Below, piece by piece: positions 46,980-63,557 of a stretch of 64,000 bases of DNA; positions within the stretch are counted from its first letter, which is position 1; every line of letters starts with the position of its first letter. The notes beneath the pieces are model-generated. The model searched no databases, was not told the origin of the DNA, and worked only from the letters and a program-made list of their open reading frames with translations. Source of the stretch: Gluconacetobacter diazotrophicus PA1 5. Its GTDB lineage: Bacteria > Pseudomonadota > Alphaproteobacteria > Acetobacterales > Acetobacteraceae. Made by a program: the position numbers and the translations under genes. The stretch spans positions 186,001-250,000 of the forward strand of contig NC_011365.1 in assembly GCF_000021325.1 (NCBI RefSeq). The letters are read 5' to 3'.

Positions 46980-47858
46980 TCAGCTTCCCCGATAGGTCGA
47001 AAACCCGTACGGGGAGACCAGCAGCGGCACATGATAGTGCCCGCCCTTCCCGTCCACAGGCGGGGCGATGCCGAAGGCGATCGGCACGATATCCAGGAAC
47101 GGCGGGTCGCTCAGCGCCACGCCCTGCCCCCGGAAATACGCCGCAACCCCGAATTCCAGACGATAGGCGCCCGGTGCCAGGGCACCGATCCCGGCCAGGT
47201 CCGGACAACGCCCATCCCCGTTGGTTCGCCCGCTGAACAGGCGTGTGGCGCCCGACCACAACGTGATGTCCATCCCGGCGGCCGGCCGGCCGGAGACCAG
47301 GTCCAGCACATGGCTGGACAGGGTGATCACGGCTTCCTTTTCCAGCCGCGCCAGGGCGTCGGCCAGGCGCAGCCTGGCGATCTTGCCGATTTCCACGATC
47401 GCGGTCCGCACCTCCTGCTCCGGCGTGTGGACGACGCGGCGTTCCATCTCGGACAGGATGAAATCCTTGTCCGACAACCGCACGCAGATCACGAACGGCA
47501 TGGCGAAGCGCGCGGCGTAGGCGTCGTTCAGGCGGTTGAACCGGGCGTATTCCTCGGGCGACAGACGGTCCAGCCCGGCGGATGCCTGCTCGGCGGCCGA
47601 GGCCTGTGTCAGGGTCGGGTCCACCCCGGCCCGCCGCGCCAGTTCGGGATGCGCGCGCACCAGCGCCAGCTTCTCGGCGTCGGTGGCCCGATCCAGCACC
47701 TGGTTCATGGCCGCCAGCATCGCGTCCGGGTCCGGAAAAGGCCGCAGGGACGCCGCCCGTGCCGCGACCCAGGGCGAATGTTCGTACAGCGCGCCGAACA
47801 GGGCGACGAAATCCGCCGGGTCCAGCCGGTTGACCCGGTCCATGATGCCGATGGTCAT
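46980..47858 (-). CDS. Bifunctional OHCU decarboxylase-5-hydroxyisourate hydrolase (UraD-UraH fusion)
   Basis: One 292-residue chain holds two steps after urate oxidation. Residues 1 to about 168 are the OHCU decarboxylase, with the catalytic His in LALVRAHPELARRAGV and the block FNRLNDAYAARFAMPFVICV. Residues from about 172 are the transthyretin-like HIU hydrolase (ITLSSHVLDLVSGRPAAGMD) ending in the signature tetrapeptide YRGS. Order of action is hydrolase then decarboxylase, giving S-allantoin. ATG 47858 overlaps the puuE stop by four bases. It is the last gene of the operon. Both domains look complete. Confidence 0.94.
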   Translation of the reverse strand: MTIGIMDRVNRLDPADFVALFGALYEHSPWVAARAASLRPFPDPDAMLAAMNQVLDRATDAEKLALVRAHPELARRAGVDPTLTQASAAEQASAGLDRLSPEEYARFNRLNDAYAARFAMPFVICVRLSDKDFILSEMERRVVHTPEQEVRTAIVEIGKIARLRLADALARLEKEAVITLSSHVLDLVSGRPAAGMDITLWSGATRLFSGRTNGDGRCPDLAGIGALAPGAYRLEFGVAAYFRGQGVALSDPPFLDIVPIAFGIAPPVDGKGGHYHVPLLVSPYGFSTYRGS

Positions 47859-48760
47859 GCGGGGTGAACCTCCAGCCAATGGCGGGCGATATCCAGCCGG
47901 GTGGCGACCCAGACGCGATCATGCGCCATGACATGGTCCAGGAAGCGCGCCACCGCCCGCGCCCGTCCGGGGCGGCCGGCGACACGGCAATGCAGGCCGA
48001 CCGACATCATTTTGGGCGCCGATTCCCCTTCCTCGTACAGCGCATCGAACGTGTCGCGCAGGTAGCGGAAGAACTGCTCGCCCTCGGTAAAGCCGTTCAG
48101 GGCGACGAAGCGCATGTCGTTCGCGTCCAGCGTATAGGGGACGATCAATTGCGGTCGCCCGTACCTGCGGTCGTAATAGGGCAGGTCGTCGGCATAGGAA
48201 TCGGCATCGTAGGCGAAGCCCCCTTCCTCGGCGACCAGGCGGGCGGTGTTCGGGCTGGTGCGCCCCTGGTACCACCCCACCGGCCGCGATCCGGTCAGGG
48301 CGGTATGCAGCGCGATGCAGTCGCGGATATGGGCGCGCTCCACATCCTCGGGGATGTCCTGGTAATCGATCCAGCGCAGGCCGTGGGTGGCGATGTCCCA
48401 CCCGGCCCCCAGCATGGCCGCCACCGCGTCGGGATTGCGCGCCATCGCCGCCGCCACCCCGAAGACCGTCACGGGCAGCGACCGCTCGGTGAACAGCCGG
48501 TGCAGGCGCCAGAAACCGGCGCGCGACCCGTATTCGTACAGGCTTTCCATGGCCATGGCGCGCGCGCCGGGGACGGACCGGGCACCGATCATCTCGGACA
48601 GGAAGGCCTCGGACCCCGCATCGCCATGCAGGACCGAATTTTCGCCCCCTTCCTCGTAATTGATGACGAACTGCACGGCGACCCGGGCCTGCCCCGGCCA
48701 GCGCGGATCGGGCGGATGGCCGGCATAGCCGACCAGGTCGCGGGGATACGGGTCCGTCAT
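47855..48760 (-). CDS. puuE: Allantoinase PuuE (polysaccharide-deacetylase fold)
   Basis: This 301-residue protein belongs to the PuuE branch of the polysaccharide deacetylase family, which hydrolyses allantoin to allantoate without the usual bimetal centre of AllB. Family marks are PRDLVGYAGHPPDPRWPGQA at the N-terminus, QFVINYEEGGENSVLHGDAG, GWDIATHGLRWIDYQDIPED and MMSVGLHCRVAGRPGRARAV. It overlaps both neighbours by four bases. The product feeds the allantoate amidohydrolase encoded upstream. Confidence 0.94.
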   Translation of the reverse strand: MTDPYPRDLVGYAGHPPDPRWPGQARVAVQFVINYEEGGENSVLHGDAGSEAFLSEMIGARSVPGARAMAMESLYEYGSRAGFWRLHRLFTERSLPVTVFGVAAAMARNPDAVAAMLGAGWDIATHGLRWIDYQDIPEDVERAHIRDCIALHTALTGSRPVGWYQGRTSPNTARLVAEEGGFAYDADSYADDLPYYDRRYGRPQLIVPYTLDANDMRFVALNGFTEGEQFFRYLRDTFDALYEEGESAPKMMSVGLHCRVAGRPGRARAVARFLDHVMAHDRVWVATRLDIARHWLEVHPA

Positions 48761-50004
48761 GACGCGGCCCCGGGTGCGGCCCCGGGCATGGCCTCGTAGG
48801 ACGCGCGGGCGGCATCCACGCCGGCCCCGCGCGGCAGGGCGTGGCCTTCGGCGGCCAGCACGGCTTCCAGCGCGCCCAGGGTGATCAGGACCTTGTGCTT
48901 CATGGCGTTGTAGCCCATGGCGCCGATGCGCCAGATCCGGCCCGCCAGCGGGCCGAAGGCGGTGCCGATCTCGATCTCGAATTCGTCGCGCATGCGGGTG
49001 CGGGCGCGCTCACCATCCACGCCGTCGGGGATGAACACGCCGGTGACGTTGGCCATGCGGTACGCATCCTGGCCGTACAGCGTCAGGCCCATCGCCCGCA
49101 ATCCGGCGGCCATGGCCTCACTCGCGGCGCGATGCCGGGCGAAGCGCGCCTCCAGCCCCTCTTCCACCATGATCCGCGCCGCCTCGCGCGCCGCATAGAG
49201 CATGGAGGTCGCTTCGGTGTGGTGGTTCAGCCGCTTCTCGGACCAGTATTCCATGATCATGGCCAGGTCGAAATAGTTCGATCCGATCCGCGTCCGGCTG
49301 CCATCCTGGGCATCGGCGCCCCTGATCCCGGCCTCGACATGCCGGCGGGCCATGATATGCGCCGCCGCCCGGTCCGAGATGGTGATGGGGGCCGAGCCCG
49401 GCGGACCGCCCATGCATTTCTGCAATCCGCCCGTCACCACATCCACGCCCCAGGCGTCGGTCGCCACCGCCATACCGCCCAGCGTCGCCGTGGCATCGAC
49501 ATAGGACAGCACGCCGTGCCGCCGGCAGATCGCCCCCACGCCGTCCAGCGGCTGGGCCATGGTGGTCGAGGTATCGCCGTGGATGGTGGCGAAGACCTGC
49601 GGCCGGTGTTCGATGATCGCGGCCTCGATCTGCTCCGGGGTCGCGACCTCGCCCCACGGGATGTCGATGGTGCGGATCTCGGCGCCGATGCGCTGCGCGA
49701 TTTCCGACAGCAGCAGCCCGAACCGGCCCGCCCGCAGGATCAGCAGCCGCGCCCCCGGCTCGACCAGCGAGACCAGGGCGGCCTCGATCCCCGCCCGCGC
49801 CGTGCCGTCGACCAGGAAGGTCCAGCGGTTTTCGGTCATGAACACCTGGCGGTACAGCGCCATCGTCTGGTTCATGTACCCCGTCATCTCCGGGTCGAAC
49901 TGGCCCAGCATGTCCGCCGTCATCGCGCGCAGCACGCGCGGATGCACATTCACCGGCCCCGGCCCCATCAGCAGCCGCTGCGGCGGATCGATCTGCCCGA
50001 ACAT
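48757..50004 (-). CDS. pucG: (S)-ureidoglycine-glyoxylate aminotransferase
   Basis: This 415-residue class V aminotransferase is close to PucG/UGXT, which converts ureidoglycine plus glyoxylate to oxalurate plus glycine. It has the opening FGQIDPPQRLLMGPGPVNVH, the PLP lysine in VVTGGLQKCMGGPPGSAPIT, and a substrate-loop NYFDLAMIMEYWSEKRLNHH typical of the AGT/UGXT group. ATG 50004 has GGAGG 11 bases upstream; a GTG at 50031 overlaps the preceding stop and could also be used. Alanine-glyoxylate or serine-glyoxylate aminotransferase is possible from sequence alone. The cluster strongly favours PucG. Confidence 0.9.
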   Translation of the reverse strand: MFGQIDPPQRLLMGPGPVNVHPRVLRAMTADMLGQFDPEMTGYMNQTMALYRQVFMTENRWTFLVDGTARAGIEAALVSLVEPGARLLILRAGRFGLLLSEIAQRIGAEIRTIDIPWGEVATPEQIEAAIIEHRPQVFATIHGDTSTTMAQPLDGVGAICRRHGVLSYVDATATLGGMAVATDAWGVDVVTGGLQKCMGGPPGSAPITISDRAAAHIMARRHVEAGIRGADAQDGSRTRIGSNYFDLAMIMEYWSEKRLNHHTEATSMLYAAREAARIMVEEGLEARFARHRAASEAMAAGLRAMGLTLYGQDAYRMANVTGVFIPDGVDGERARTRMRDEFEIEIGTAFGPLAGRIWRIGAMGYNAMKHKVLITLGALEAVLAAEGHALPRGAGVDAARASYEAMPGAAPGAAS

Positions 50005-50027
50005 CGTCCCCGTATCCTCCATTGTCT

Positions 50028-51317
50028 TCACTGCGTACCCTGTTGTGCCGAAGCCGCTGCCCGGGCATCGAACCGTTCGATAAAATCCGTCATCGCCCGC
50101 AGGGCCAGATCGGCATCCTCGACCCGGACGGCCTCGGCCGGGTTATGGCTGATACCGCCGGCGCAGCGGATGAACAGCATGGACATCGGCGCCAGCCCGG
50201 CCATCACCATCGCATCGTGCCCGGCCCCGCTGACCAGGGTGCGCGGCGCGATGCCCATGGCGTGCTGCACCGCCTGTTCCATCAGGCGGGTCAGGCCGGG
50301 ATCGCACGGCGTCGCCTTCAGGTCCTGCTGCAATTCCAGGTCCAGCGTCACCTGCCGGGCCCCGGCGATCCCGGCCAGCGCCGCGCGGACCGCCTCCGCC
50401 GCCCGGTCGCGCACCGCGCCGGTCCCGGCACGGATATCGATGCTGAATTCGACCGCGCCGGGCACCACGTTGGGTACGCCGGGACGGACCTCCATCCGGC
50501 CCACCGTCGCCACCAGGTCGTCCGTGCCGGCGCCGCCAATCCGTTCGATGGCCAGCACCATCTCGGCCGCCGCCGCCAGCGCGTCACGGCGCAGCCGCAT
50601 GGCCATGGTGCCGGCATGCCCCGCCACCCCGCACACCGTGGCGCGAAAGCGGAACTGCGCCGCAATGGCGCTGACGACGCCCAGCGCGCGATCCTCGGCC
50701 TCCAGCACCGGGCCCTGCTCGATATGGGCCTCGACATAGGCCAGCACGTCCTCGCGCGGCCGCGCGGCATGGTCCAGTCGTGCCACGTCCAGGCCGAAAA
50801 TCTCCAGCGCCGTGGCCAGGCTGGTACCGTCCGCATCCAGCAGGTCCAGGTCCTGGCCCGCCAGCGTGCCGGCAACGGCGCGGGTGGCCAGCATCGAGAC
50901 GGGAAAGCGCGATCCTTCCTCGTCCCCGAAGCCGATCACCTCGATCGCGAAGGGAAAGCGGCGGCGGCGTTCGGCGAACCAGGCGACGGCCTCGATCCCC
51001 AGCATGACGCCCAGCATGCCGTCATAGCGGCCGGCATCGCGCACGCTGTCGACATGCGACCCGATCATCAGCGCCGGCGCGTCGGGTGATTGGCCTTCAT
51101 ACCGGCCGAGGATATTGCCGGCGGCGTCGATCCGCGCCGTCATGCCGGCCTCGGTCATCCAGGCCGCGATCCGGTCCAGCGTCGCGGCGTGCCCCGCCCC
51201 CAGATAGGGGCGGAAAAGCCCCGCCGGGTCGTCCGAATACGGGGCCGTGCCCAGTTCGTCGCACCGCACGACCGCGCGGATGCCGGAGGCCGTCTCCCGC
51301 ATCGGGGGAATTACCAT
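50028..51317 (-). CDS. allC: Allantoate amidohydrolase (M20 family)
   Basis: This 429-residue zinc/manganese hydrolase converts allantoate to ureidoglycine, CO2 and ammonia. M20 metal motifs are present: MIGSHVDSVRDAGRYDGMLG (His and Asp ligands), EVIGFGDEEGSRFPVSMLAT (Glu-Glu), EAHIEQGPVLEAEDRALGVV (His) and SGAGHDAMVMAGLAPMSML (His). N-carbamoyl amino acid hydrolases share these motifs, so specificity rests on the neighbours. Its start overlaps the stop of the HpxW-like gene by 7 bases. Confidence 0.9.
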   Translation of the reverse strand: MVIPPMRETASGIRAVVRCDELGTAPYSDDPAGLFRPYLGAGHAATLDRIAAWMTEAGMTARIDAAGNILGRYEGQSPDAPALMIGSHVDSVRDAGRYDGMLGVMLGIEAVAWFAERRRRFPFAIEVIGFGDEEGSRFPVSMLATRAVAGTLAGQDLDLLDADGTSLATALEIFGLDVARLDHAARPREDVLAYVEAHIEQGPVLEAEDRALGVVSAIAAQFRFRATVCGVAGHAGTMAMRLRRDALAAAAEMVLAIERIGGAGTDDLVATVGRMEVRPGVPNVVPGAVEFSIDIRAGTGAVRDRAAEAVRAALAGIAGARQVTLDLELQQDLKATPCDPGLTRLMEQAVQHAMGIAPRTLVSGAGHDAMVMAGLAPMSMLFIRCAGGISHNPAEAVRVEDADLALRAMTDFIERFDARAAASAQQGTQ

Positions 51318-52903
51318 GCCGCCACCATGCCGTCGCTGCGCGGGTCCGTCGCGCCCTCGATCAGGCCGGACGGGTGCAGCACCAGCGCGCCCGCGTGGCC
51401 CATGGTGGAGGTAAAGGCCGGCATGGCCTCCAGCACATGCCCGGCTTCGCCCAGCCGGGCGATGACTTCCGGCGCGAAGCGGTCCTCGTATTTCAGGGTG
51501 GTGCTGTCCTCGCCCCAGGTGCGGCCCAGCAGCCAGCGCGGGGCGGTCACCGCCTGCTGCAACCCGATGCCGTAGCGGGCATAGCGGGTGAACAGCGCGG
51601 CCTGGGTCTGGGGCTGGCCCTCGCCGCCCATGGTGCCGTAGACCATGGTGCGCCCGTCATCGAACCGGGCGGCGGCGGGGTTCAGCGTATGGAACGGCTT
51701 GCGCCCCGGGCGCAGCGCGTTCCAGCCATCTTCCGCCAGGCGGAAGCTGGCGCCGCGATTCTGCCACAGTACCCCGGTGCGCGGCAGGACCACGCCCGAC
51801 CCGTATTCGAAATAGACGCTCTGGATCATGCTGACGGCCACGCCGTCGGCATCCACCGCCCCCATCCACACCGTATCGCCGGCCTGCGACGGATGGGGCC
51901 AGGGCGCCGCCCGGGCCGGGTCGATCGCCAGCGCCATGCCGTCCAGCGCCAGCGTGTCGTCCAGCACCGCCTGCGCGTCCACGGACATGAAGGCGGGATC
52001 GCCGACATGGGCGTCGCGATAGCGGAAGGCCTGCTTGGTGGCTTCGACCAGCCCGTGGACGTGATCGAACCCGTCCGGCTGGTCCGCGCGCAGCCGGTCG
52101 AAGATGGCCAGGATCAGCAGCGACGCGACCCCCTGGGTCGGCGGGGCCATGTTGAACAGGCGCGCGCCCGTGACATCGACATGCAGCGGCGGCCGGGCGC
52201 GGGCCTGGTGGGTGTTCAGGTCGGCCAGGTCCAGCGGGCTGCCCAGCACGCGCAGGTCCTGGGCCATGTCGCGGGCCAGGGCGCCGCGATAGAAGGAATC
52301 CAGCCCGTCCGAGGCCAGCCGGCGAAGGGTCTGGGACAGCGCCGGGTTATGCAGCATGTCACCCGCCCGGGGCGCACGCCCCCCCGGCAGGAAGACATCG
52401 CGAAAGCCCGGAATGCCGGCCAGTTCGTCCATTTTCGCCTGGGTCAGGGCGGCCCCGCCCTCGGTCACCGGCACGCCCTGTTCGGCGTAATAGATGGCAT
52501 CGCGCAGCAGCCGGTGCAGGCTCAGCCCCGGCTGCTGCGCGTGGCTCCAGGACAGGGCGAGGTCCCAGCCGGAGATCGTGCCCGCGACCGTGTTCGCGGC
52601 CAGCGGGCCGCGCCACGGAATCGCGTCCCGACCCGCCGCGCGATAGAAATCCAGGTCGGCGCGCCGGGCCGCCGCGCCGCAGGCGTCGATCGTCTCGGTC
52701 CGGCCGTCGGGCCACAGGACCAGCCAGAACCCGTCGCCGCCGATCCCGGTCATGTGGGGATAGACGACGGCCAGGGCGGCGGCGGTCGCAACCACCGCCT
52801 CGATTGCCGTGCCGCCGTCGCGCAGCACGTCCAGTCCGGCCTGGCTGGCCAGATGATGCGGGGACGTCACCATCCCGCGCTGCGAACGTGGCGTATGCAG
52901 CAT
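51311..52903 (-). CDS. hpxW: Gamma-glutamyltransferase-family hydrolase, HpxW-like (oxamate amidohydrolase)
   Basis: This 530-residue Ntn hydrolase starts MLHTPRSQRGMVTSPHHLAS and has no signal peptide, unlike true gamma-glutamyltransferases. The self-cleavage nucleophile is expected to be Thr in SQAGDTVWMGAVDADGVAVS. Other blocks are HMTGIGGDGFWLVLWPDGRT and MVYGTMGGEGQPQTQAAL. In the Klebsiella hpx system the homologous gene HpxW hydrolyses oxamate to oxalate and ammonia, and its neighbours hpxX and hpxY are also present here. It follows the HpxY-like gene by 3 bases. The exact substrate is inferred. Confidence 0.87.
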   Translation of the reverse strand: MLHTPRSQRGMVTSPHHLASQAGLDVLRDGGTAIEAVVATAAALAVVYPHMTGIGGDGFWLVLWPDGRTETIDACGAAARRADLDFYRAAGRDAIPWRGPLAANTVAGTISGWDLALSWSHAQQPGLSLHRLLRDAIYYAEQGVPVTEGGAALTQAKMDELAGIPGFRDVFLPGGRAPRAGDMLHNPALSQTLRRLASDGLDSFYRGALARDMAQDLRVLGSPLDLADLNTHQARARPPLHVDVTGARLFNMAPPTQGVASLLILAIFDRLRADQPDGFDHVHGLVEATKQAFRYRDAHVGDPAFMSVDAQAVLDDTLALDGMALAIDPARAAPWPHPSQAGDTVWMGAVDADGVAVSMIQSVYFEYGSGVVLPRTGVLWQNRGASFRLAEDGWNALRPGRKPFHTLNPAAARFDDGRTMVYGTMGGEGQPQTQAALFTRYARYGIGLQQAVTAPRWLLGRTWGEDSTTLKYEDRFAPEVIARLGEAGHVLEAMPAFTSTMGHAGALVLHPSGLIEGATDPRSDGMVAAW

Positions 52904-52906
52904 GGT

Positions 52907-54271
52907 CTATCGTCCCTTCGGAAGCGGAACCTTCCCGGCCACGCCGGCGGCTTCCAGCGCCGCGGCCACGGCAAACAACGCGGGCTCGCCCCCCGGGGCT
53001 GCGATCAATTGCAGGCCGAGCGGCAAACCCCCGGTGCCCAGCAGCGGAACGCTGAGGATCGGCACCCCGGCCAGGCTGAGCGGCTGGGTATACAGGCCCA
53101 GGTTGGTGCGGGCGGAAACGGCCTGCCCGTCCACGACGATGGTCGGCTGGTCGATCAGCGGGGCCTCGCCGACCGTGGCGGGGGCGATCAGCACATCGGC
53201 CGTGCGGAACGCGGCGTGGATCTGTTCGCGGAACCACGCACGGAAGCGATGGGCCTGCAGGACCGTCGCGGCGGGCAGCAGGGCGCCCGCGATCAGCCGG
53301 TCGCGCGTCGCCGGGTCGTATTGCAGGGCGCGGCGGCGCAGGCGCGGCAGGTGCAGCATGCCGCCTTCCGCCGCCGTGATCAGGAACGACGCCGCACGCG
53401 CCCGCGCGACCTCCGGCAGTTCCACCACCGGAACATGGCCCAGATGGCCCGCCACGGCGTCGATGGCCGCCGCCAGCGGGGCGGACACGTTTTCGGCGAA
53501 CCAGCCGCCCAACCGCGCCACCCGCAGGTCGGACAGGACCGGCACGGCCGGCATCGGGGCGCCATTCATCGCTTCATGGACCACGCGCAGGTCGGCCAGC
53601 GTACCCGCGAACGGTCCCACCACGTCCAGGCTGGCGGCGAAGGGATACGCCCCTTCTCGCGGGACGGTGCCGAAGGTGGGCTTCAGCCCCCACACGCCGC
53701 ACAGCGACGCCGGAACGCGGATCGACCCGTTGGTGTCCGACCCCAGGGTGAACGGCAGGAAGCCGGCCGCCACGGCGGCGGCGGACCCGCCCGACGACCC
53801 GCCGGCCAGCCGCGCCGGATCATGCGGGTTGCGGGTGATGCCGTAATGCGCGTTGTCGGTGGCGAAGCCGTAGGCGAATTCGTCCATGTTCAGGCTGGCC
53901 AGCGGGATGGCCCCCGCCGCGCGCAGCCGCGCGATCACGGTGGCGTCCTGCACCGCCGGACGCGCCTCGCGCAGGACGACGGACCCTGCGGTCGTGACCT
54001 CGCCCTCGACATCGAACAGGTCCTTGACGCCGAAGGGCACGCCGGCCAGCGGGCCGGGGTCTTCGCCGGCCGCGATGCGGCGGTCGATCTTCTCGGCCTC
54101 GGCCACCGCGCGGGGGCCGAAGATGCGGGTTACGCTGTTGACCCGCGTGTCACGGACCTCGATCGCCGCGATGGCGGCGGTGACGAAGGATACGGCATTG
54201 CGCCGCCCCTGGCGGATTTCGGCCGCGATGGCCAGCGCATCGGCCGGACCGGCCGCAACGGGCGCGCTCAT
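52907..54271 (-). CDS. hpxY: AtzE/HpxY-family amidase
   Basis: This 454-residue amidase-signature enzyme has the full Ser-cisSer-Lys triad: Lys83 in GVPFGVKDLFDVEGEVTTAG, cis-Ser near residue 159 in RLAGGSSGGSAAAVAAG, and nucleophile Ser183 in LGSDTNGSIRVPASLCGVWG. AtzE (1-carboxybiuret hydrolase) needs the small AtzG partner, encoded here by the overlapping upstream gene. Within purine operons the homologue is HpxY and probably acts on a ureido compound such as oxalurate. ATG 54271 overlaps the upstream stop by four bases. Confidence 0.88.
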   Translation of the reverse strand: MSAPVAAGPADALAIAAEIRQGRRNAVSFVTAAIAAIEVRDTRVNSVTRIFGPRAVAEAEKIDRRIAAGEDPGPLAGVPFGVKDLFDVEGEVTTAGSVVLREARPAVQDATVIARLRAAGAIPLASLNMDEFAYGFATDNAHYGITRNPHDPARLAGGSSGGSAAAVAAGFLPFTLGSDTNGSIRVPASLCGVWGLKPTFGTVPREGAYPFAASLDVVGPFAGTLADLRVVHEAMNGAPMPAVPVLSDLRVARLGGWFAENVSAPLAAAIDAVAGHLGHVPVVELPEVARARAASFLITAAEGGMLHLPRLRRRALQYDPATRDRLIAGALLPAATVLQAHRFRAWFREQIHAAFRTADVLIAPATVGEAPLIDQPTIVVDGQAVSARTNLGLYTQPLSLAGVPILSVPLLGTGGLPLGLQLIAAPGGEPALFAVAAALEAAGVAGKVPLPKGR

Positions 54272-54489
54272 GGGCGGTATTCGAAAGCGGGTTCGCACGT
54301 GTCCGGCAGCGCGAAGCCATGGACCAGGTCGGCATAGCGCCGCAGCAGGGCCCGGTTGGCCAGCACGCCCGGCATGCAGACGTCGGCGATGGTCAGGCCG
54401 ACCTCGCGCGCCGTGGCGGCGACGAGCGCCGCATCCGGTATCGTGTCAGGTGCACTCTTGGGGGGGGCATCGCCTTGGTTGTCGGTCAT
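54268..54489 (-). CDS. hpxX: AtzG/HpxX-like small subunit (DUF4089)
   Basis: This 73-residue protein has a DUF4089 helical core: LVAATAREVGLTIADVCMPG then VLANRALLRRYADLVHGFAL and the C-terminal PDTCEPAFEYRP. AtzG-type proteins bind AtzE-type amidases and are needed for their stability. The start ATG 54489 (MTDNQGDAPPK) is chosen; the frame is open to 54522. Overlap with the amidase gene (ATGA) fits equal production. A partner of the AtzH/HpxZ type is not found nearby. Confidence 0.85.
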   Translation of the reverse strand: MTDNQGDAPPKSAPDTIPDAALVAATAREVGLTIADVCMPGVLANRALLRRYADLVHGFALPDTCEPAFEYRP

Positions 54490-54552
54490 CGACTTGTCCT
54501 CGTTCCGTGGTCCCTGCCGCATCGTATGGCGTGCGGCAGGGCCTGCAACGGA

Positions 54553-56007
54553 TCATGCATCCGGAGGATCGAGGCTGACCAGTTCCGGCGTTACATAACT
54601 GAGCAGATTGTCCAGGTGCCAGGCGCCGTCGGCCACGAACAGGTCGCGCCCCAGGCCGCGCGCCAGCCGCTCCACGCCGAATCGCATGCCGCTGATCGAA
54701 GCTCCCGACAGGCCCATGCTGGGCGTCGCGCCGAAGGTGAAATTATGGATGTTCGCCAGCATCGTCGCCAGCGGATCGCGCGGATCGCGGGGCTGGAACT
54801 GATAGGCGTCGCCCAGATAGGCATGGGCCCCCAGCAGCGCGCTTTCCTCGCCGTCCGGCGGGGTGAAGCGGTCGCGCCACAGGGCGACCGACCCGGCGAA
54901 GGAGGCCAGTTCCGGACGCAGGTTCAGGTCGGTGGCGAAGCCGGTGCCGATGATGACGAAATCGAATCGCTTCTCGCCATCCGGGGTGCGGACGACGACT
55001 TCGTCGCCATCCATCTCCGCCCCGGTCCAGCCGCATCCGGTATGGTACGAGAAGGTCGGATGCCGGCGGCAGCGCCAGAACGTATCCTGCGGCGGTGGCT
55101 GGTTCAGTTCGTAGATATGGCGCATGAACTGCCAGCGCAGCGTATCCGGCAGCGACGGGAAATGGGCCAGGAAACCCGTGTTTTCCATCCAGCGGTACGG
55201 GTTGACCGACGGAATGACGCGCCGCCGCAGGCACAGCGCGACCGACGCCGCGCCCTGTTCCAAGGCGGTCGCGGCGTTGTCGAAGGCCGAGGCCCCGGCC
55301 CCCAGCACGCCGATCCGCTTGCCGCGCAGAGCCGCGAAATCGATGTCTTCGGACGTGTGGGCGAAGCGCTCGCGCGGCAGGTTCTCGCGGATGAAGGCCG
55401 GGACGTTCCACGCGCCGTTGCCTTCGATGCCGGTCGCCAGGACCAGCTTGCGGGCCAGATGATGATATTCCCGCCCGGCCGCGTCACGGAAGGTCAGGCG
55501 CAGCAGGCCGTCCACCCATTCCACATGCTCGAACGACCGGTCGTTTTCGACCGGCAGGCCCAGCGTGTCGCGATACCAGTCCAGATAGGCCTGCCAGTCG
55601 CCGCGGGGAATCTTGTCCAGGTCTTCCCACGCCTGCACGCCGTAGGTGGCTTCGTACCACGCGCGGGGCGTCAGGTTGGGAATGCCCAGGTCGGGACCGG
55701 TGACGTATTTCGGCGTCCGCAGGGTGATCATGCGGGCATAGGTGATCCACGGCCCCTCGCCGCCGCGCGCCGCGCGATCGAAGATACGGACATTCGTGAT
55801 ATTGCCGCGCTGCAGGGCGAACGCGGTGGCCAGTCCGCCCTGCCCGGCGCCGATGATGGCGACGTCCAGCACCGGTTCACCGTTGCGCGAAAAATTCGGC
55901 GTCCAGTCGTGACGGGGGTAGCCGATAACGGCCAGGTCGCGTCGGACCGCGGCGGTCAGCGCCGCAAGCCCCTCTTCTGATGGAAGAGCACTGCTGTCGG
56001 CGGCCAT
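54553..56007 (-). CDS. Flavin-containing monooxygenase-like FAD/NAD(P)-binding protein
   Basis: This 484-residue protein has two dinucleotide-binding motifs, VAIIGAGQGGLATAFALQRG (FAD) near residue 52 and KRIGVLGAGASAFDNAATAL (NADPH) near residue 230. ATP-grasp or other folds are absent, so it looks like a class B flavoprotein monooxygenase. AAGGAG precedes ATG 56007. It heads the purine operon, followed 63 bases later by hpxX. The pathway in this window lacks a recognisable urate oxidase (uaZ, puuD or HpxO-type), so it is a candidate for urate hydroxylation. That is an inference. It could instead oxidise an amine or another purine product. Confidence 0.75.
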   Translation of the reverse strand: MAADSSALPSEEGLAALTAAVRRDLAVIGYPRHDWTPNFSRNGEPVLDVAIIGAGQGGLATAFALQRGNITNVRIFDRAARGGEGPWITYARMITLRTPKYVTGPDLGIPNLTPRAWYEATYGVQAWEDLDKIPRGDWQAYLDWYRDTLGLPVENDRSFEHVEWVDGLLRLTFRDAAGREYHHLARKLVLATGIEGNGAWNVPAFIRENLPRERFAHTSEDIDFAALRGKRIGVLGAGASAFDNAATALEQGAASVALCLRRRVIPSVNPYRWMENTGFLAHFPSLPDTLRWQFMRHIYELNQPPPQDTFWRCRRHPTFSYHTGCGWTGAEMDGDEVVVRTPDGEKRFDFVIIGTGFATDLNLRPELASFAGSVALWRDRFTPPDGEESALLGAHAYLGDAYQFQPRDPRDPLATMLANIHNFTFGATPSMGLSGASISGMRFGVERLARGLGRDLFVADGAWHLDNLLSYVTPELVSLDPPDA

Positions 56008-56147
56008 CCTCGGCTCCTTCTGTCGATATTGATCCGGTAGGCATGCCACGTGCCGGGCGGATGGTCCGTGTCCCCCGACACGGACCGAGTTCCCCAACTC
56101 GCACCATCCCGGAACCGAAACTAACCGGATCGCCCGGTGTTTCGTCC

Positions 56148-56153
56148 AGTATA
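56148..56153 (-). promoter_or_regulatory. Possible -10 element of the purine operon promoter
   Basis: On the minus strand TATACT lies about 140 bases before the monooxygenase start, in an AT-rich patch (TTTTTATTATACTGG). The -35 region is poor. The LysR-type box at 56166-56190 ends about 12 bases upstream of it, an arrangement expected for a promoter that needs an activator. Confidence 0.45.
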
Positions 56154-56165
56154 ATAAAAAGACCA

Positions 56166-56190
56166 ATCCGTTGCTGAAACAGGAACGGAT
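56166..56190. promoter_or_regulatory. LysR-type operator candidate (7-bp arms, 11-bp spacer)
   Basis: ATCCGTT at 56166-56172 and AACGGAT at 56184-56190 are perfect inverted arms separated by 11 bases, which satisfies the T-N11-A rule of LysR-type binding boxes. It lies 9 bases beyond the lysR stop codon and upstream of the monooxygenase-hpxXYW-allC-pucG-puuE-uraDH operon. Binding by the adjacent LysR protein is the obvious inference. Confidence 0.7.
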
Positions 56191-56198
56191 AGAGCCAC

Positions 56199-57125
56199 TT
56201 ACATCGCCTGCAGCGTTGCCCGTATTTCGGCGATCAGCCGTTCAAGCGCGGGCGGCAGCCAGCGGGCATCGCGGACATAGACGCCCAGGTCGGTCACGGC
56301 ACGCGGATCGGCCAGCGGCACATGGACCAGGGCGCCGCGCTGGATGTCGAATTCCAGCGCCAGCCGGGACTGGAACGCCAGCCCCGCCCCGGCCGCCACC
56401 ATGCGGTTGGTCAGTTCGATGGACCCGGTTTCCAGCACCACGTCCAGCCGGTCGCGCCAGGGTCGCAGCATGGGTTCCATGACCCGGTGGAGCGACAGCG
56501 ACCGGGTGGGCAGGATCAGCTTGTGGCCGATGCACTCCTCGATCCGCACGCGGCGCTGGCCGGCCAGCGCATGATTGGCGGGCATGATGACGCCGACCGG
56601 GAAATTCGCGACCGCGACCCGGCGCAGTTCATCCGGCGGGTCCAGCGAAAAGGCGATGCCCAGGTCGGTGGTGCCCCCGGACAGGGCCGCGATGATGGCG
56701 GCGGGCGAGCCGGTTTCCGCCTGCAACTGGACGTCCGGACAGGTTTCGGTCATGCGCGTCAGCAGGCGGGCCATCAGGTCGCCCGCGACGCCTTCGACCG
56801 CCATCAGGCTGACGCGTCCGCCGCGCATGCCGGCCAGGGCCGCGATCTGCTCGTCCGTGCGCACGGCGTCCTGCATGACGGTGATGATATGGCGGGCGAC
56901 GATTTCGCCCACCGCCGTCAGCACCATGCCGCCCGGCAGCCGGTCGAACAGCGGCGACCCGATTTCGTCCTCCATCTGCGCGATCTGGCGCGTCAGGGCG
57001 GACGGGGTGACGTTCAGGCGGCGCGCGGCCTCGCGGATCGACCCGAAATCGCGCACCGCGTTGAAATACACGATGCAGCGCGCATGCAGCCGCAACATAT
57101 GCGCGGTCCGGCCCGATGCCCTCAT
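56199..57125 (-). CDS. LysR-family transcriptional regulator
   Basis: This 308-residue regulator has an N-terminal winged HTH (YFNAVRDFGSIREAARRLNV then TPSALTRQIAQMEDEIGSPL) and a LysR substrate-binding domain (GGRVSLMAVEGVAGDLMARL; ELTNRMVAAGAGLAFQSRLA). It is cotranscribed with xdhABC: its ATG overlaps the xdhC stop by four bases. A purine intermediate or related metabolite is the likely co-inducer. Its target is probably the T-N11-A box just downstream, so it would link the xanthine dehydrogenase operon to the ureide operon. An N-terminal extension of about 9 residues before MLRLHARC is unusual but harmless. Confidence 0.9.
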   Translation of the reverse strand: MRASGRTAHMLRLHARCIVYFNAVRDFGSIREAARRLNVTPSALTRQIAQMEDEIGSPLFDRLPGGMVLTAVGEIVARHIITVMQDAVRTDEQIAALAGMRGGRVSLMAVEGVAGDLMARLLTRMTETCPDVQLQAETGSPAAIIAALSGGTTDLGIAFSLDPPDELRRVAVANFPVGVIMPANHALAGQRRVRIEECIGHKLILPTRSLSLHRVMEPMLRPWRDRLDVVLETGSIELTNRMVAAGAGLAFQSRLALEFDIQRGALVHVPLADPRAVTDLGVYVRDARWLPPALERLIAEIRATLQAM

Positions 57126-57985
57126 GCCGTGTACCTCATGCCGATCCCTTCCGCCCCGTTGCTCTCTTCCATTCCGGCATTGTCATGCAACAATCGTTCC
57201 ACAATTTCGGCGGCGACCAGGGCGGCGATGATTTCGGGGCGCTTGTCGCGGATGCCGCGATCGCCGATCGGGCAGACCAGGGTCTCGATGCGGTCCTCGC
57301 CCAGGCCCAGGCTGCGAAAACCGGCCTCGAACCGCCGCCGCTTGGTCTTCGACCCGATCAGTCCGACATACCGGAAATCACCCCGTTCCAGCGCCGCGCC
57401 GACGATCAGCGCATCCAGCGCGTGGCTGGGCGTCAGCACCAGGGCGCCGGCGCCGGGCGGGGCGGCGGCAATGGCGCTTTCCCAGTCGGCGGTGACGCGG
57501 ATTTCGACACTATCGGGGACCGTGCCGAATTCGGCGGCACGCGGATCGATCCAGACCAGGCGCAGCGGCAGCGGGGCCAGCGCGCGGGCCAGCGCCCGCC
57601 CGACATGCCCGGCGCCGAACAGCAGCAGCACCGGCCGCGCCGCGCGCGCGGCCAGCCCGTCGCGCACCAGCGCATCCAGCAGCGCGTCGTCCGCGCGTTC
57701 GATCCGCACCCGCACCACCCCGCCGCAGCACTGGCCGATTTCGGGGCCGAGCGGCACGTCATGTTCCCCGGCCTGACCCTGTCCGGCCAGCAGGGCCCGC
57801 GCCCGGATCACGCTGTCCCATTCCAGATGGCCGCCGCCGATGGTCCCGGCCTGCGCGTCCGGTGTGACCAGCATGAACGACCCGGCCTCGCGCGGGGTGG
57901 ACCCGCGGGCGGCGCGGATCGCGATCCGGGCGATGGGCTGCCCGGCGGGCCGCCAGAGATCAAGCGCGGCCAGGATCTCGTCCAT
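57122..57985 (-). CDS. xdhC: Xanthine dehydrogenase accessory protein XdhC
   Basis: This 287-residue protein binds the molybdenum cofactor and promotes its sulfuration and insertion into XdhB. Family marks are RAARGSTPREAGSFMLVTPD and GTIGGGHLEWDSVI near the N-terminus. A Rossmann segment follows (PVLLLFGAGHVGRALARALA), then DFRYVGLIGSKTKRRRFEAG. A CGG motif is in IGQCCGGVVRVRIERADDA. ATG 57985 is 11 bases after the xdhB stop, and its own stop overlaps lysR. Confidence 0.93.
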   Translation of the reverse strand: MDEILAALDLWRPAGQPIARIAIRAARGSTPREAGSFMLVTPDAQAGTIGGGHLEWDSVIRARALLAGQGQAGEHDVPLGPEIGQCCGGVVRVRIERADDALLDALVRDGLAARAARPVLLLFGAGHVGRALARALAPLPLRLVWIDPRAAEFGTVPDSVEIRVTADWESAIAAAPPGAGALVLTPSHALDALIVGAALERGDFRYVGLIGSKTKRRRFEAGFRSLGLGEDRIETLVCPIGDRGIRDKRPEIIAALVAAEIVERLLHDNAGMEESNGAEGIGMRYTA

Positions 57986-57996
57986 CGCGGGACCGC

Positions 57997-60378
57997 TCAG
58001 CCGACGGGACAGGGTGCCGCGAGGCCGCGCATCCGCTCCGTCGTGCGCAGGATCGTCTCGGGCGTCGCGGGCGCGTCCAGCCGGGGACAGGTGCGGTAGC
58101 CATCGATGCTGGCCAGGGCGTCGGATATGGCGTGCAGGACCGCCACCCCATGCACGAAGGGCGGCTCCCCCACCGCCTTGGACCGGAAGATCGTGTCCTC
58201 GCGATTGGGGGCGTGGTCCAGCAGCTTCACCGTGAACCGGCGCGGCCGGTCGGAACAGGCCGGGACCTTGTAGGTGCTGGGGGCGTGGGTGCGCAGGCGG
58301 CCGGACGCGTCCCACACCAGTTCCTCGGTCGTCAGCCAGCCCGCGCCCTGGACGAATCCGCCCTCGATCTGGCCGATATCGATCGCCGGATTCAGCGATT
58401 GTCCGGCATCGTGCAGGATGTCCACCTGTTCGATCCGCGTCTCGCCGGTCAGCAGGTCGATCGCGACCTCGGCGCAGGCGGCGCCATAGGCGAAATAGAA
58501 GAACGGCCGCCCCCGCCCGGTCTCGGCGTTCCACGAGATTTTCGGCGTCTTGTAGAACCCGCTGGAGGACATCGACACCCGGGCGAAATAGGCGGCGCGG
58601 GTCAGGTCCGGGAACGGCACCACGGTCGCGCCGACATGCACGCCATCCGGCAGGAACCGGACCTGGGCGGCATCCACGCCCCAATGGCCGGCCGCGAATT
58701 CCACCAGCCGATCCTTGATCCGGCGCACCGCGTCCAGCACCGCCATGCCGTTCAGGTCGGCGCCGGACGAGGCCGCGGTGGCGGATGTGTTGGGCACCTT
58801 GCCGGTCGTCGTCGCGGTGATGCGGACGCGGTCGGCCGGCAGGCCGAATTCGCGCATGGCGATCTGCACCATCTTGGTGTGCAGCCCCTGCCCCATTTCG
58901 GTCCCGCCGTGATTCACCTGCACCGACCCATCGGTATAGACATGCACCAGCGCGCCGGCCTGGTTGTAATGCGTGGCGGTGAAGGAAATGCCGAACTTGA
59001 CCGGCGTCAGCGCGATGCCGCGCCTGATATGCGGGCTGCCCTCATTGGCGGCGCGCAGGGCGGCGCGGCGCGCGCGATAGGCGCAGTCATCGGCCAGCTT
59101 CGCCATGATGTCGGCCGAAATCGAATCCTCGACCGTCATGTGATAGGGCGTCAGGTCGCGCGTGCCGGTGCCGTAGACGTTGCGCAGGCGGACATCCAGC
59201 GGGTCCAGACCGGTCGCGAACGCGATTTCCTCGATCACGCGTTCCGCCGCGACGATGCCCTGCGGACCGCCGAAACCGCGATAGGCGGTATTGGACTGGG
59301 TGTTGGTCTTCAGCGGTTCCGACCGCAGCCGGACATCGGGGTAGTAATAGGCGTTGTCGGCATGGAACAGCGCGCGGTCGGTCACCGGGCCGGACAGGTC
59401 GGCCGACCAGCCGCAGCGGGCCGCCAGCACCATGTCCACGGCCCGGATGCGGCCGTCATCGTCGAATCCGACATCGTAATCAACCACGAAATCATGCCGC
59501 TTGCCGGTCATCATCATGTCGTCGTCGCGGTCCAGCCGGATCTTGGCCGCCCGCCCCGTCAGTTCCGCCGCCAGCGCCGCCAGGCAGGCCGGGGTGTTGG
59601 CCTGGGTTTCCTTGCCGCCGAAACCGCCGCCCATGCGGCGGATTTCCGTCGTCACCAGATTGCTGGGCCGGTCCAGCACATGGGCCACCATATGCTGGGT
59701 TTCGGTCGGATGCTGGGTGGAGGACCAGACCCGCATCTCGCCCTCCTCGCCAGGCTGGGCCATGGCCGCCTGGCCTTCCAGGTAGAAATGCTCCTGCCCA
59801 CCCATGGTGATGCGCCCCGCCACGCGGCGGGGCGACGCGGCCAGGCCGGACGGGGCATCGCCGCGCTGCATGGTCAGGGGCCGCCAGACCATGGCGCCAC
59901 CCGCCGCGCGGGCCTGCGCGATGTCCAGGATGGCGGGCAGGTCCTCGTACTCGATCCGCGCCAGCCTGGCCGCGTGCCGGGCCTGCAGGCGGGTTTCGGC
60001 CACCACGGCGAAGATCGGCTGGCCGTAATAGGACACCAGGTCCGTCGCGAGCAGCGGTTCGTCATTGCGGCCCACCGGGCTGACCTGGTTGTGGCCGGGA
60101 ATATCCGCCGCCGTCAGCACCCGCACGACCCCGGGGGCGGCACGGACGGCATCGAGGTCCATCGAGACGATCCGGGCATGCGCCCGCGTGCTCAGTCCCG
60201 GCACGACATGCAGCAGTCCCTTCGGTTCGGGCATGTCGTCGATATAGGCGGCGGCGCCGGCAACATGCATCGCCGCACTTTCGTGCCGCAGGCTGTGCGA
60301 CGCGCCGCCCGTCACGACGGTGCCGGGAACGGCGTCAGGAAGGGCGCCAGAAATGGGGGCCGATATCGTATCACGCAT
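57997..60378 (-). CDS. xdhB: Xanthine dehydrogenase, molybdopterin-binding subunit
   Basis: This 793-residue large subunit holds the molybdenum site that hydroxylates hypoxanthine and xanthine to urate. Conserved blocks are RRMGGGFGGKETQANTPACL, the active-site region NTQSNTAYRGFGGPQGIVAA (Arg for substrate binding), VQVNHGGTEMGQGLHTKMVQ and the catalytic Glu in KAVGEPPFVHGVAVLHAISD near the C-terminus. Length is normal for bacterial XdhB. Its start overlaps the xdhA stop by 8 bases. Confidence 0.96.
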   Translation of the reverse strand: MRDTISAPISGALPDAVPGTVVTGGASHSLRHESAAMHVAGAAAYIDDMPEPKGLLHVVPGLSTRAHARIVSMDLDAVRAAPGVVRVLTAADIPGHNQVSPVGRNDEPLLATDLVSYYGQPIFAVVAETRLQARHAARLARIEYEDLPAILDIAQARAAGGAMVWRPLTMQRGDAPSGLAASPRRVAGRITMGGQEHFYLEGQAAMAQPGEEGEMRVWSSTQHPTETQHMVAHVLDRPSNLVTTEIRRMGGGFGGKETQANTPACLAALAAELTGRAAKIRLDRDDDMMMTGKRHDFVVDYDVGFDDDGRIRAVDMVLAARCGWSADLSGPVTDRALFHADNAYYYPDVRLRSEPLKTNTQSNTAYRGFGGPQGIVAAERVIEEIAFATGLDPLDVRLRNVYGTGTRDLTPYHMTVEDSISADIMAKLADDCAYRARRAALRAANEGSPHIRRGIALTPVKFGISFTATHYNQAGALVHVYTDGSVQVNHGGTEMGQGLHTKMVQIAMREFGLPADRVRITATTTGKVPNTSATAASSGADLNGMAVLDAVRRIKDRLVEFAAGHWGVDAAQVRFLPDGVHVGATVVPFPDLTRAAYFARVSMSSSGFYKTPKISWNAETGRGRPFFYFAYGAACAEVAIDLLTGETRIEQVDILHDAGQSLNPAIDIGQIEGGFVQGAGWLTTEELVWDASGRLRTHAPSTYKVPACSDRPRRFTVKLLDHAPNREDTIFRSKAVGEPPFVHGVAVLHAISDALASIDGYRTCPRLDAPATPETILRTTERMRGLAAPCPVG

Positions 60379-61864
60379 GGATCGCGGCCTCGCTCCGTCC
60401 GGCCAGCCGGGTTTCGGGCCGACGCGCGCCGGGGGCGGTCTCGGCGAACAGCCGGGTCAGCAGGTTGGCCGCGACCGTGCGGCGGTACCAGTCGCTGGCC
60501 CGCATGTCGGAAATCGGCGCGAAATCGGTAGCGATGGCGGCCCGCGCGGCCTGCAGCGTCGCCTCGGACCACGGATGGCCGCGCAGGGCTTCCTCGGTCG
60601 CGCGGGCCCGCTTGGGGGTCGCCGCCATGCCGCCGAAGGCGATGCGGGCGTCGGTGATGGTGCCCGCATCGTCCAGCGTCAGCGCGAAAGCGCCCAGCAG
60701 GGCCGAGATATCCTGGTCGAACCGCTTGGAGACCTTGTAGGCCCGGAAAACCTGTCCCTGGCGCAGGGCGGGAATGGTCACGCCCTCGACGAATTCGCCG
60801 GGTTGGCGGTCCTGCTGGCCATAGGCGAGGAAATAATCCTCCAGCGGCATGTTTCGCCGCACATCGCCCCGGCGCAGGTGCAGCGTCGCCCCCGCCGCGA
60901 TGAAGACCGGCGGCCCGTCCCCGATCGGCGAGCCGTTGGCGATGTTGCCGCAGACCGTCCCGGCGTTGCGCACCTGGGTCGAGCCGATCCGCCGCACGAT
61001 TTCACCCGCGTCCGGCAGCAGGCCGGCCAGGGCGTCGCGCGCGTCCTCGTATGTGACGGCCGCGCCGATCCGCAGCCCGTCCGCCGTGCGGTCCAGCCGC
61101 TTCAGGTCGGGGACCTGGCCGATGGCGACGACATGCGGCAAGGTGCGCAGCCCCTTGGTGACCCACAGCCCGACATCCGTGGCCCCGGCCACGATCGTGG
61201 CCTCGGGATCGGCCAGCAGGGTGGCGGCCAGCGCGTCGGCGTCGGCGGGAATGGTCAGCCGGCCCGCTGGACCCGAGACGTGTACCGTCTGGCCGTCCCG
61301 CAGGGCCGACAGACGGTCGGCGATCGCCGCGGCCTGCGCGTCGAACCGGTCGGAACCCGCCGCCATCGCCTGTTTCATGGCGCGGACGATCGGGGCGTAG
61401 CCGGTACAGCGGCACAGATTGCCGGCCAGCGCGTCGTCGATCGGCCCGTCCTCGGCCACCGCGCCCGGTTGCTTGCGGTAGGCGACCATCGACATGACGA
61501 ATCCCGGCGTGCAGAACCCGCATTGCGATCCGTGCAGGTCCACCATCGCCTGCTGCACCGGATGCAGCGTGCCGTCCGACGCGCGCAGATCCTCCACCGT
61601 GAAAAGCTGCGCGCCATCCAGCATGGACACGAACTGGATGCAGGCATTCACCGCCCGCCAGGCCAGGCGCGGGGCATCGGGGGGGCCGCCGTCCAGCCGC
61701 GCCACCAGCACGGTGCAGGCCCCGCAATCGCCCTCGTTGCAGCCTTCCTTGGTGCCGGTCCGGCCGCGCTGCTCGCGCAGCCAGTCCAGGACCGTCAGGG
61801 TCGGGGAAAAGCCCGACAGGTCGTAAAGCGTGTCGCCCAGGTAAAAGCGGATATGGTCGCGCAT
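60371..61864 (-). CDS. xdhA: Xanthine dehydrogenase, iron-sulfur/FAD subunit
   Basis: This 497-residue small subunit carries two [2Fe-2S] clusters and FAD and passes electrons to NAD+. The plant-type cluster is in GCNEGDCGACTVLVARLDGG near residue 45, with an additional Cys downstream. The second cluster uses QCGFCTPGFVMSMVAYR and GNLCRCTGYAPIVRAMKQAM. The FAD domain has TIVAGATDVGLWVTKGLRTL and NAGTVCGNIANGSPIGDGPP. It leads the xdhA-xdhB-xdhC-lysR operon. A promoter is expected in the 137 bases upstream, but none is obvious. Confidence 0.96.
   Translation of the reverse strand: MRDHIRFYLGDTLYDLSGFSPTLTVLDWLREQRGRTGTKEGCNEGDCGACTVLVARLDGGPPDAPRLAWRAVNACIQFVSMLDGAQLFTVEDLRASDGTLHPVQQAMVDLHGSQCGFCTPGFVMSMVAYRKQPGAVAEDGPIDDALAGNLCRCTGYAPIVRAMKQAMAAGSDRFDAQAAAIADRLSALRDGQTVHVSGPAGRLTIPADADALAATLLADPEATIVAGATDVGLWVTKGLRTLPHVVAIGQVPDLKRLDRTADGLRIGAAVTYEDARDALAGLLPDAGEIVRRIGSTQVRNAGTVCGNIANGSPIGDGPPVFIAAGATLHLRRGDVRRNMPLEDYFLAYGQQDRQPGEFVEGVTIPALRQGQVFRAYKVSKRFDQDISALLGAFALTLDDAGTITDARIAFGGMAATPKRARATEEALRGHPWSEATLQAARAAIATDFAPISDMRASDWYRRTVAANLLTRLFAETAPGARRPETRLAGRSEAAIHA

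Positions 61865-62001: not shown

Positions 62002-63557
<1,556 letters not shown>

Follow-up and report, generated by a model that had tools for sequence, protein, structure and literature searches.

A flavoprotein of the Gluconacetobacter diazotrophicus purine-breakdown island is a predicted HpyO-type urate hydroxylase

Introduction

Which enzyme oxidises urate in Gluconacetobacter diazotrophicus PA1 5? The question is raised by a 64,000-nucleotide stretch of contig NC_011365.1 (positions 186,001 to 250,000; referred to here as the window), in which an island of purine-breakdown genes lies on the minus strand. An earlier note on this DNA, made from the letters alone, listed genes from xanthine dehydrogenase to ureidoglycine aminotransferase, saw no enzyme for the step from urate to 5-hydroxyisourate, and suggested that the flavoprotein encoded by the first gene of the ureide operon (54553-56007) might be a urate hydroxylase. 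The distribution, gene context, homology and signature residues described below indicate that this suggestion is very probably right, and we predict with high confidence that the protein is a urate hydroxylase of the HpyO type. This reading rests on cofactor motifs, a model of a class B fold, gene context, a distribution complementary to that of PuuD, homology to a Xanthomonas-type protein and a set of signature residues.

PMC4562309, which cites Michiel et al. 2012, presents HpyO of Xanthomonas as an established urate hydroxylase dependent on flavin adenine dinucleotide (FAD) and reduced nicotinamide adenine dinucleotide or its phosphate (NAD(P)H); in PMC5138847 and PMC5270733, HpyO appears in the reference lists only. 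The earlier note had also described the island as lacking any known urate oxidase, and the step as one for which no family of this kind is established. Neither statement is supported, as HpyO, a fourth known type, had been overlooked and the flavoprotein of a Xanthomonas-type operon is 47% identical to that of the window.

Results

Known urate oxidases and the distribution of the flavoprotein

The genome is 99.99% complete, in 2 contigs. Searches of it gave no match to Uox (uricase, PF01014) and none to PuuD (PF06181), and the HpxO model (NF033623, urate_HpxO) gave five distant matches, all below the cut-off of 500 bits, the best of them scoring 93.6 bits at another locus. A canonical urate oxidase elsewhere in the genome was thus rejected as a candidate, and the absence of uaZ, PuuD and HpxO first seen in the island was upheld genome-wide. 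Nor does the flavoprotein have a second copy, since a search of the genome at E <= 0.001 matched only the protein itself.

The distribution of these genes was then compared in a sample of 200 genomes of the order, every one of them listed under the same family (Acetobacteraceae), with the close form of the flavoprotein defined as E <= 1e-190 and a middle form as 51-55% identity. UraD was found in 97 genomes, full-length PuuD in 44 (a further four had a short partial PuuD), the close form in 79 and the middle form in 13. Every close-form genome had UraD (79/79) and none had full-length PuuD (0/79), and the close form was absent wherever UraD was absent. Among genomes with UraD and no PuuD, 79 of 86 had the close form, one (G165) the middle form and six neither, whereas none of the 11 with both UraD and PuuD had the close form. 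Taking the close and middle forms together, full-length PuuD occurred in 0 of 92 genomes. Searches of 80 of the 86 UraD-positive, PuuD-negative genomes found Uox in 0/80 and an HpxO match above the cut-off in 0/80. Fisher tests gave p = 1.5e-38 for UraD against the flavoprotein and p = 5.8e-12 for the flavoprotein against PuuD, values that overstate independence as the genomes are related. The check proposed in the earlier note thus came out positive: where uaZ, puuD and hpxO are missing, the flavoprotein co-occurs with uraD-uraH and puuE.

Gene neighbourhood and the place of PuuD

Of 74 named loci, 61 had a UraD or UraH match on the fetched stretch around the flavoprotein. Some further island gene was matched at every one of the other 13; their stretches were shorter than 16.3 kb in 11 cases and of full length in two. 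At all 15 Gluconobacter loci PuuE came 24-30 bp behind the flavoprotein gene, with UraDH next, a distant LysR being the sole other island gene matched on these stretches, and on a Niveispirillum plasmid (Azospirillaceae) UraD, the flavoprotein and UraH lay back to back with overlapping ends. In all 13 middle-form genomes the flavoprotein and UraH were on one strand, with 21-75 bp between the ends of their alignments, and those of these genomes that were included in the tree cluster with named Roseomonas, Pararoseomonas and Humitalea. Of 13 hand-picked PuuD-bearing relatives, ten had UraH on the strand of PuuD at a distance of 24-118 bp; UraH was 2.5 kb away in one and was not seen in two. Because the flavoprotein-UraH pairing matches the PuuD-UraH pairing of these relatives, the flavoprotein occupies the place of PuuD.

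These observations bear on the idea that the flavoprotein serves another step of the island, for instance with a side product as its substrate, and that the oxidation of urate falls to an unrecognised enzyme or a distant HpxO-like class A hydroxylase. The five distant HpxO-model matches would provide candidates for the latter, and the role of the flavoprotein is itself a prediction. However, the HpxO cut-off was reached in none of the 80 genomes searched, the flavoprotein is the only recognised oxidase beside UraD, UraH and PuuE in the small Gluconobacter and Niveispirillum clusters, and it stands next to UraH where PuuD would be; we consider this explanation extremely improbable.

The survey also showed that the PF09349 OHCU (2-oxo-4-hydroxy-4-carboxy-5-ureidoimidazoline) decarboxylase was missing from 12 of the 13 middle-form genomes and from 33 of the 44 with full-length PuuD; UraH nevertheless adjoined the oxidase at 13/13 middle-form and 10/13 PuuD loci. 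No obvious UraD substitute was seen among the conserved neighbours at Roseomonas-type loci. OHCU in genomes without PF09349 may either decay spontaneously or be handled by an unrecognised decarboxylase. Separately, a divergent UraD-like gene (32-34% identity) was found in four genomes of the family (L161, L162, L163 and L169); its stretch gave matches to none of the other island genes.

Motifs and predicted fold of the flavoprotein

The flavoprotein carries dinucleotide-binding motifs of the GxGxxG and GxGxxA types, GAGQGG at residue 53 and GAGASA at residue 236, and a GTGF motif at residue 354. Its closest named relatives, at 83-86% identity, are at 11 loci, all in Gluconacetobacter species save for one Nguyenibacter. 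PF13454 (NAD_binding_9), a domain name that InterPro links to HpyO, matched at 32.4 bits (cut-off 21.8); it was not the top-scoring Pfam match, and PF13738 was matched as well. No NCBIfam model matched above its cut-off, FAD_binding_3 gave no match at E <= 0.001, and comparison with sequences in the PDB gave only weak matches (best 6.9e-05).

An AlphaFold2 model of the protein (mean predicted local distance difference test score, pLDDT, 85.2; predicted template modelling score, pTM, 0.86) had as its nearest solved folds PvdA (E 1.1e-20, TM-score 0.61) and SidA (E 1.7e-18, TM-score 0.58; both TM-scores on the query), and no urate hydroxylase appeared by name among the 50 matches listed. On this model the protein is a two-dinucleotide-domain flavoprotein with a class B fold like that of the N-hydroxylating monooxygenases (NMOs). 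Ahead of their second Rossmann motif, class B enzymes of the flavin-containing and Baeyer-Villiger monooxygenase types usually carry the fingerprint FxGxxxHxxx(Y/F/W). Residues 212-224 of the flavoprotein (RERFAHTSEDIDF) do not conform to it and retain the histidine, H217, alone. The description of the protein as class B-like in the earlier note thus agrees with the fold, for which PvdA and SidA are nearest, but not with the fingerprint.

Xanthomonas-type relatives

Relatives in the Xanthomonadaceae were reached through the XVIPCD domain, which we took as a marker of that family and which had 11 matches, in one of 80 genomes searched; the family of this genome (G292) was then searched in turn. 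UraD was present in 21 of its 119 genomes and a strong flavoprotein match in nine, all nine being among the 21. At all nine loci the flavoprotein gene had UraD on one side, at 0-32 bp, and UraH on the other, at 18-45 bp, all three on one strand; PuuE was found at a distance of 0.9-1.9 kb, with an aminotransferase nearby and, in most, an allantoate hydrolase too. One genome, G618, had a second copy of the flavoprotein elsewhere, at 44% identity. The protein of one such operon was 47% identical to that of the window (221/467 residues, 407 bits), identities over the nine ranged from 46 to 48%, and PF13454 was the best match of the L184 flavoprotein (53.5 bits).

Assignment to a genus was made with sX9, a small RNA of Xanthomonas. 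Searched in ten genomes (nine UraD genomes and G292), it had 71, 68, 29 and 80 matches in four that belong to a single genus, g275, 5 and 6 in two genomes of g266, and none in the other four. The g275 genomes, all four of which are among the nine with a strong flavoprotein match, are therefore presumed to be Xanthomonas, and their operon flavoprotein should be the published HpyO, to judge from its place in the operon and this identification. Genomes of another family (f40) had initially been taken as Xanthomonas; they carry a PuuD-like gene and were set aside.

Two loci of the Acetobacteraceae, L145 (G119) and L144 (G189), come from genomes without the close form, and their flavoproteins group with the Xanthomonadaceae rows of the tree (100 in the Shimodaira-Hasegawa-like approximate likelihood ratio test, SH-aLRT). 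Both adjoin an allantoate-hydrolase-like gene, and in L145 the distance to UraD and UraH is about 3.3-3.8 kb. Their placement hints at transfer between lineages.

Signature residues and paralogues

An alignment of 72 rows was divided into a urate group of 39, 25 clear paralogues and eight further rows that lie near the urate group in the tree. The urate group comprised 34 rows whose stretch held UraD or UraH (the window row, for which a short stretch was fetched, counting by its own island) and five placed by the tree, so that the signature count leans on the tree. Seven residues, T98, T218, R272, E275, N302, Q303 and S439, were present in 39/39 rows of the urate group. Among the clear paralogues, T98, E275, Q303 and S439 were found in 0/25, and each of the others in at most 20%. 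The signature is thus common to all urate-linked members, yet it is no proof that urate is the substrate. Paralogues at 40-50% identity are numerous in other places across the superfamily; four annotated plasmid paralogues, for example, adjoin genes for LysR, an ABC transporter, sarcosine oxidase or other proteins, with no UraD or UraH matched on the stretches. Since such paralogues without urate context occur at 40-50%, identity alone gives no function.

This matters for a further explanation, in which the protein of the acetic acid bacteria came from a common pool of related flavin hydroxylases, gained urate hydroxylation independently of Xanthomonas HpyO and would form a family of its own. 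The 46-48% identity to the Xanthomonadaceae proteins does not exceed that of many relatives without urate context (40-54%), and rows of the latter kind sit between the two groups in the tree. Yet R272, E275, N302, Q303 and S439 are common to all rows of the urate group, a single clade of the 39 rows was not rejected (p = 0.32 in the approximately unbiased test, p-AU), and L145, itself from the Acetobacteraceae and with UraD and UraH on its stretch, groups with the Xanthomonadaceae rows. A separate origin seems to us very unlikely, and an HpyO-type urate hydroxylase is the reading that we retain.

Several relatives without UraD or UraH on their stretches bear on the breadth of the group. A 49%-identical relative on a plasmid of Rhizobium sp. 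ACO-34A (L098, 8968-10419) has R272, E275, N302, Q303 and S439; a gene annotated as 8-oxoguanine deaminase is some 2 kb away, and there is a PuuE-like match on its 19-kb stretch. At L141 and L142, in the Acetobacteraceae, the relatives are near an AtzE-like amidase and, in L142, also hydantoinase-like genes; the rows at 49% identity have all five residues and those at 40-43% all except N302. Among the other rows near the urate group in the tree, L097 and L104 lack the five, and L096 has E275, Q303 and S439. The signature-bearing relatives at L098, L141 and L142 may have other oxopurines or related rings as their substrates. HpyO might even be a single branch within a broader set of NMO-fold flavin enzymes whose targets are the ring carbons of purines and similar heterocycles, which they would hydroxylate, an idea that we offer tentatively and do not hold to be probable.

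Points that weigh against the assignment

A number of observations weigh against an HpyO-type assignment. Urate hydroxylation by the flavoprotein is a prediction, and so are its substrate, product and nucleotide preference. The identity of the Xanthomonas-type operon protein with published HpyO depends on gene place and on naming by sX9, an RNA not confined to g275, as the two g266 genomes show. Kinship among the counted genomes leads the Fisher p-values to exaggerate independence, and six UraD-positive, PuuD-negative genomes (G043, G048, G062, G119, G163 and G189) have neither the close nor the middle form. The signature is not exclusive: R272 and T218 each occur in four of the 25 clear paralogues and N302 in one (L115), and L098, L141 and L142 combine R272, E275, N302, Q303 and S439 with the absence of UraD and UraH alongside. 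Five members of the urate group (L051, L070, L144, L147 and L148) were included by their place in the tree, no UraD or UraH being seen nearby (contig ends or unlinked). Finally, the quick tree mixes rows without urate context among the urate-linked rows, and single clades of the 34 linked rows (p-AU 1.2e-6) and of 37 rows (4e-29) were both rejected. Both groupings separate rows that are sisters in the tree, L064/L070 and L144/L145 for example; the 39-row grouping that was not rejected was drawn up after their rejection.

Layout of the island

Read on the minus strand, the genes run from a hydantoinase-family gene through XdhA, XdhB, XdhC and LysR to the flavoprotein, followed by the AtzE-family amidase, the HpxW-like hydrolase, the allantoate amidohydrolase, the class V aminotransferase, PuuE and the UraD-UraH fusion (Table 1). 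That the flavoprotein gene heads the operon is a fair description, the end of the LysR gene lying 191 bp upstream; 254 bp lie between the flavoprotein gene and the one after it, and the later junctions are a 3-bp gap or overlaps. The genes listed in the earlier note are present, with family scans supporting XdhA, UraD, UraH, PuuE and the allantoate amidohydrolase, and context the ureidoglycine aminotransferase; its list left out the HpxW-like homologue and the AtzE-family amidase. Both halves of the fusion also exceeded the cut-offs of their NCBIfam models (TIGR03164, UraD, 183.3 bits against 96.25; TIGR02962, UraH, 96.6 against 87.45), and an NCBIfam scan of the aminotransferase gave no model above its cut-off. 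The oxamate amidohydrolase role of the HpxW-like protein is assumed by analogy with the Klebsiella hpx pathway. The LysR gene between those for XdhC and the flavoprotein has counterparts at 66-84% identity in Gluconacetobacter and Komagataeibacter relatives, and its product may control the ureide operon.

Table 1. Genes of the purine-breakdown island, with window coordinates and the basis of each assignment.
Gene product	Coordinates	Strand	Basis
UraD-UraH fusion: OHCU decarboxylase and 5-hydroxyisourate hydrolase, one open reading frame	46980..47879	-	PF09349 169 bits; PF00576 97.9 bits
Allantoinase PuuE	47855..48760	-	TIGR03212 542.9 bits, cut-off 424.6
Class V aminotransferase, probably (S)-ureidoglycine-glyoxylate aminotransferase	48757..50031	-	PF00266 68.7 bits; role from context
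Allantoate amidohydrolase	50028..51317	-	NF006775 634.6 bits, cut-off 479
HpxW-like gamma-glutamyltranspeptidase-family hydrolase, possibly oxamate amidohydrolase	51311..52903	-	PF01019 404.7 bits
AtzE-family amidase	52907..54298	-	NF006631 597.4 bits, cut-off 461
HpyO-like FAD/NAD(P)H urate hydroxylase, predicted (P0001, 484 aa)	54553..56007	-	Context, distribution, homology, signature, predicted fold
LysR-type regulator, upstream of flavoprotein gene	56199..57125	-	PF03466 128.2 bits, PF00126 67.5 bits
XdhC-like xanthine dehydrogenase accessory protein, 287 aa	57122..57985	-	Sequence reading and position; start taken at MDEILAALDL
Xanthine dehydrogenase large subunit XdhB	57997..60378	-	Sequence reading and position; syntenic relatives
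Xanthine dehydrogenase small subunit XdhA	60371..61864	-	TIGR02963 653.6 bits, cut-off 467
Dihydropyrimidinase/hydantoinase-family protein, just upstream of XdhA; pathway role putative	62002..63429	-	TIGR02033 577 bits, cut-off 393.25

Discussion

If the flavoprotein is a urate hydroxylase of the HpyO type, its FAD would be reduced by NAD(P)H and would then react with O2 to form a flavin hydroperoxide, which would hydroxylate urate at C5 to give 5-hydroxyisourate, with water as the by-product. The UraD-UraH fusion would take 5-hydroxyisourate to (S)-allantoin and PuuE would convert this to allantoate. For the steps after allantoate we infer that the amidohydrolase would give ureidoglycine, from which the aminotransferase would make oxalurate, and that the HpxW/AtzE-type hydrolases would break down the end products.

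The family to which the protein is assigned, HpyO, is already known. A literature search on acetic acid bacteria and urate gave no title on the flavoprotein gene among the matches listed. Should the reading be true, an apparent gap in purine breakdown is closed for Gluconacetobacter, Komagataeibacter, Gluconobacter, Acetobacter and Asaia, and the signature offers candidate residues to mark the urate-linked members of a protein that is outside the NCBIfam models. A urate-degrading enzyme that would yield water, not hydrogen peroxide, is also of some practical interest.

The system most similar to that of the window is the Xanthomonas-type operon. The two flavoproteins share PF13454, PF13738 and the residues R272, E275, N302, Q303 and S439, with 47% identity over 467 residues, and the partner genes are largely the same (allantoate hydrolase, aminotransferase, PuuE, UraD and UraH). 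They differ in arrangement, since in the window the flavoprotein gene comes first in the operon, a UraD-UraH fusion lies at its far end, and HpxW/AtzE-type genes are included. HpxO of Klebsiella, a class A FAD urate hydroxylase, would catalyse the same reaction with the same cofactors but belongs to a different family, as the low score of the HpxO model, obtained at another locus, and the lack of a FAD_binding_3 match in P0001 indicate. PuuD, the membrane cytochrome c urate oxidase, carries out the same step and adjoins UraH in Roseomonas-type relatives, but is unrelated to the flavoprotein as a protein. PvdA and SidA, which provide the nearest solved folds, are only 14-19% identical to it among the matches listed; these N-hydroxylating monooxygenases act on the amine nitrogen of ornithine, whereas the window flavoprotein is predicted to hydroxylate a ring carbon, C5 of urate.

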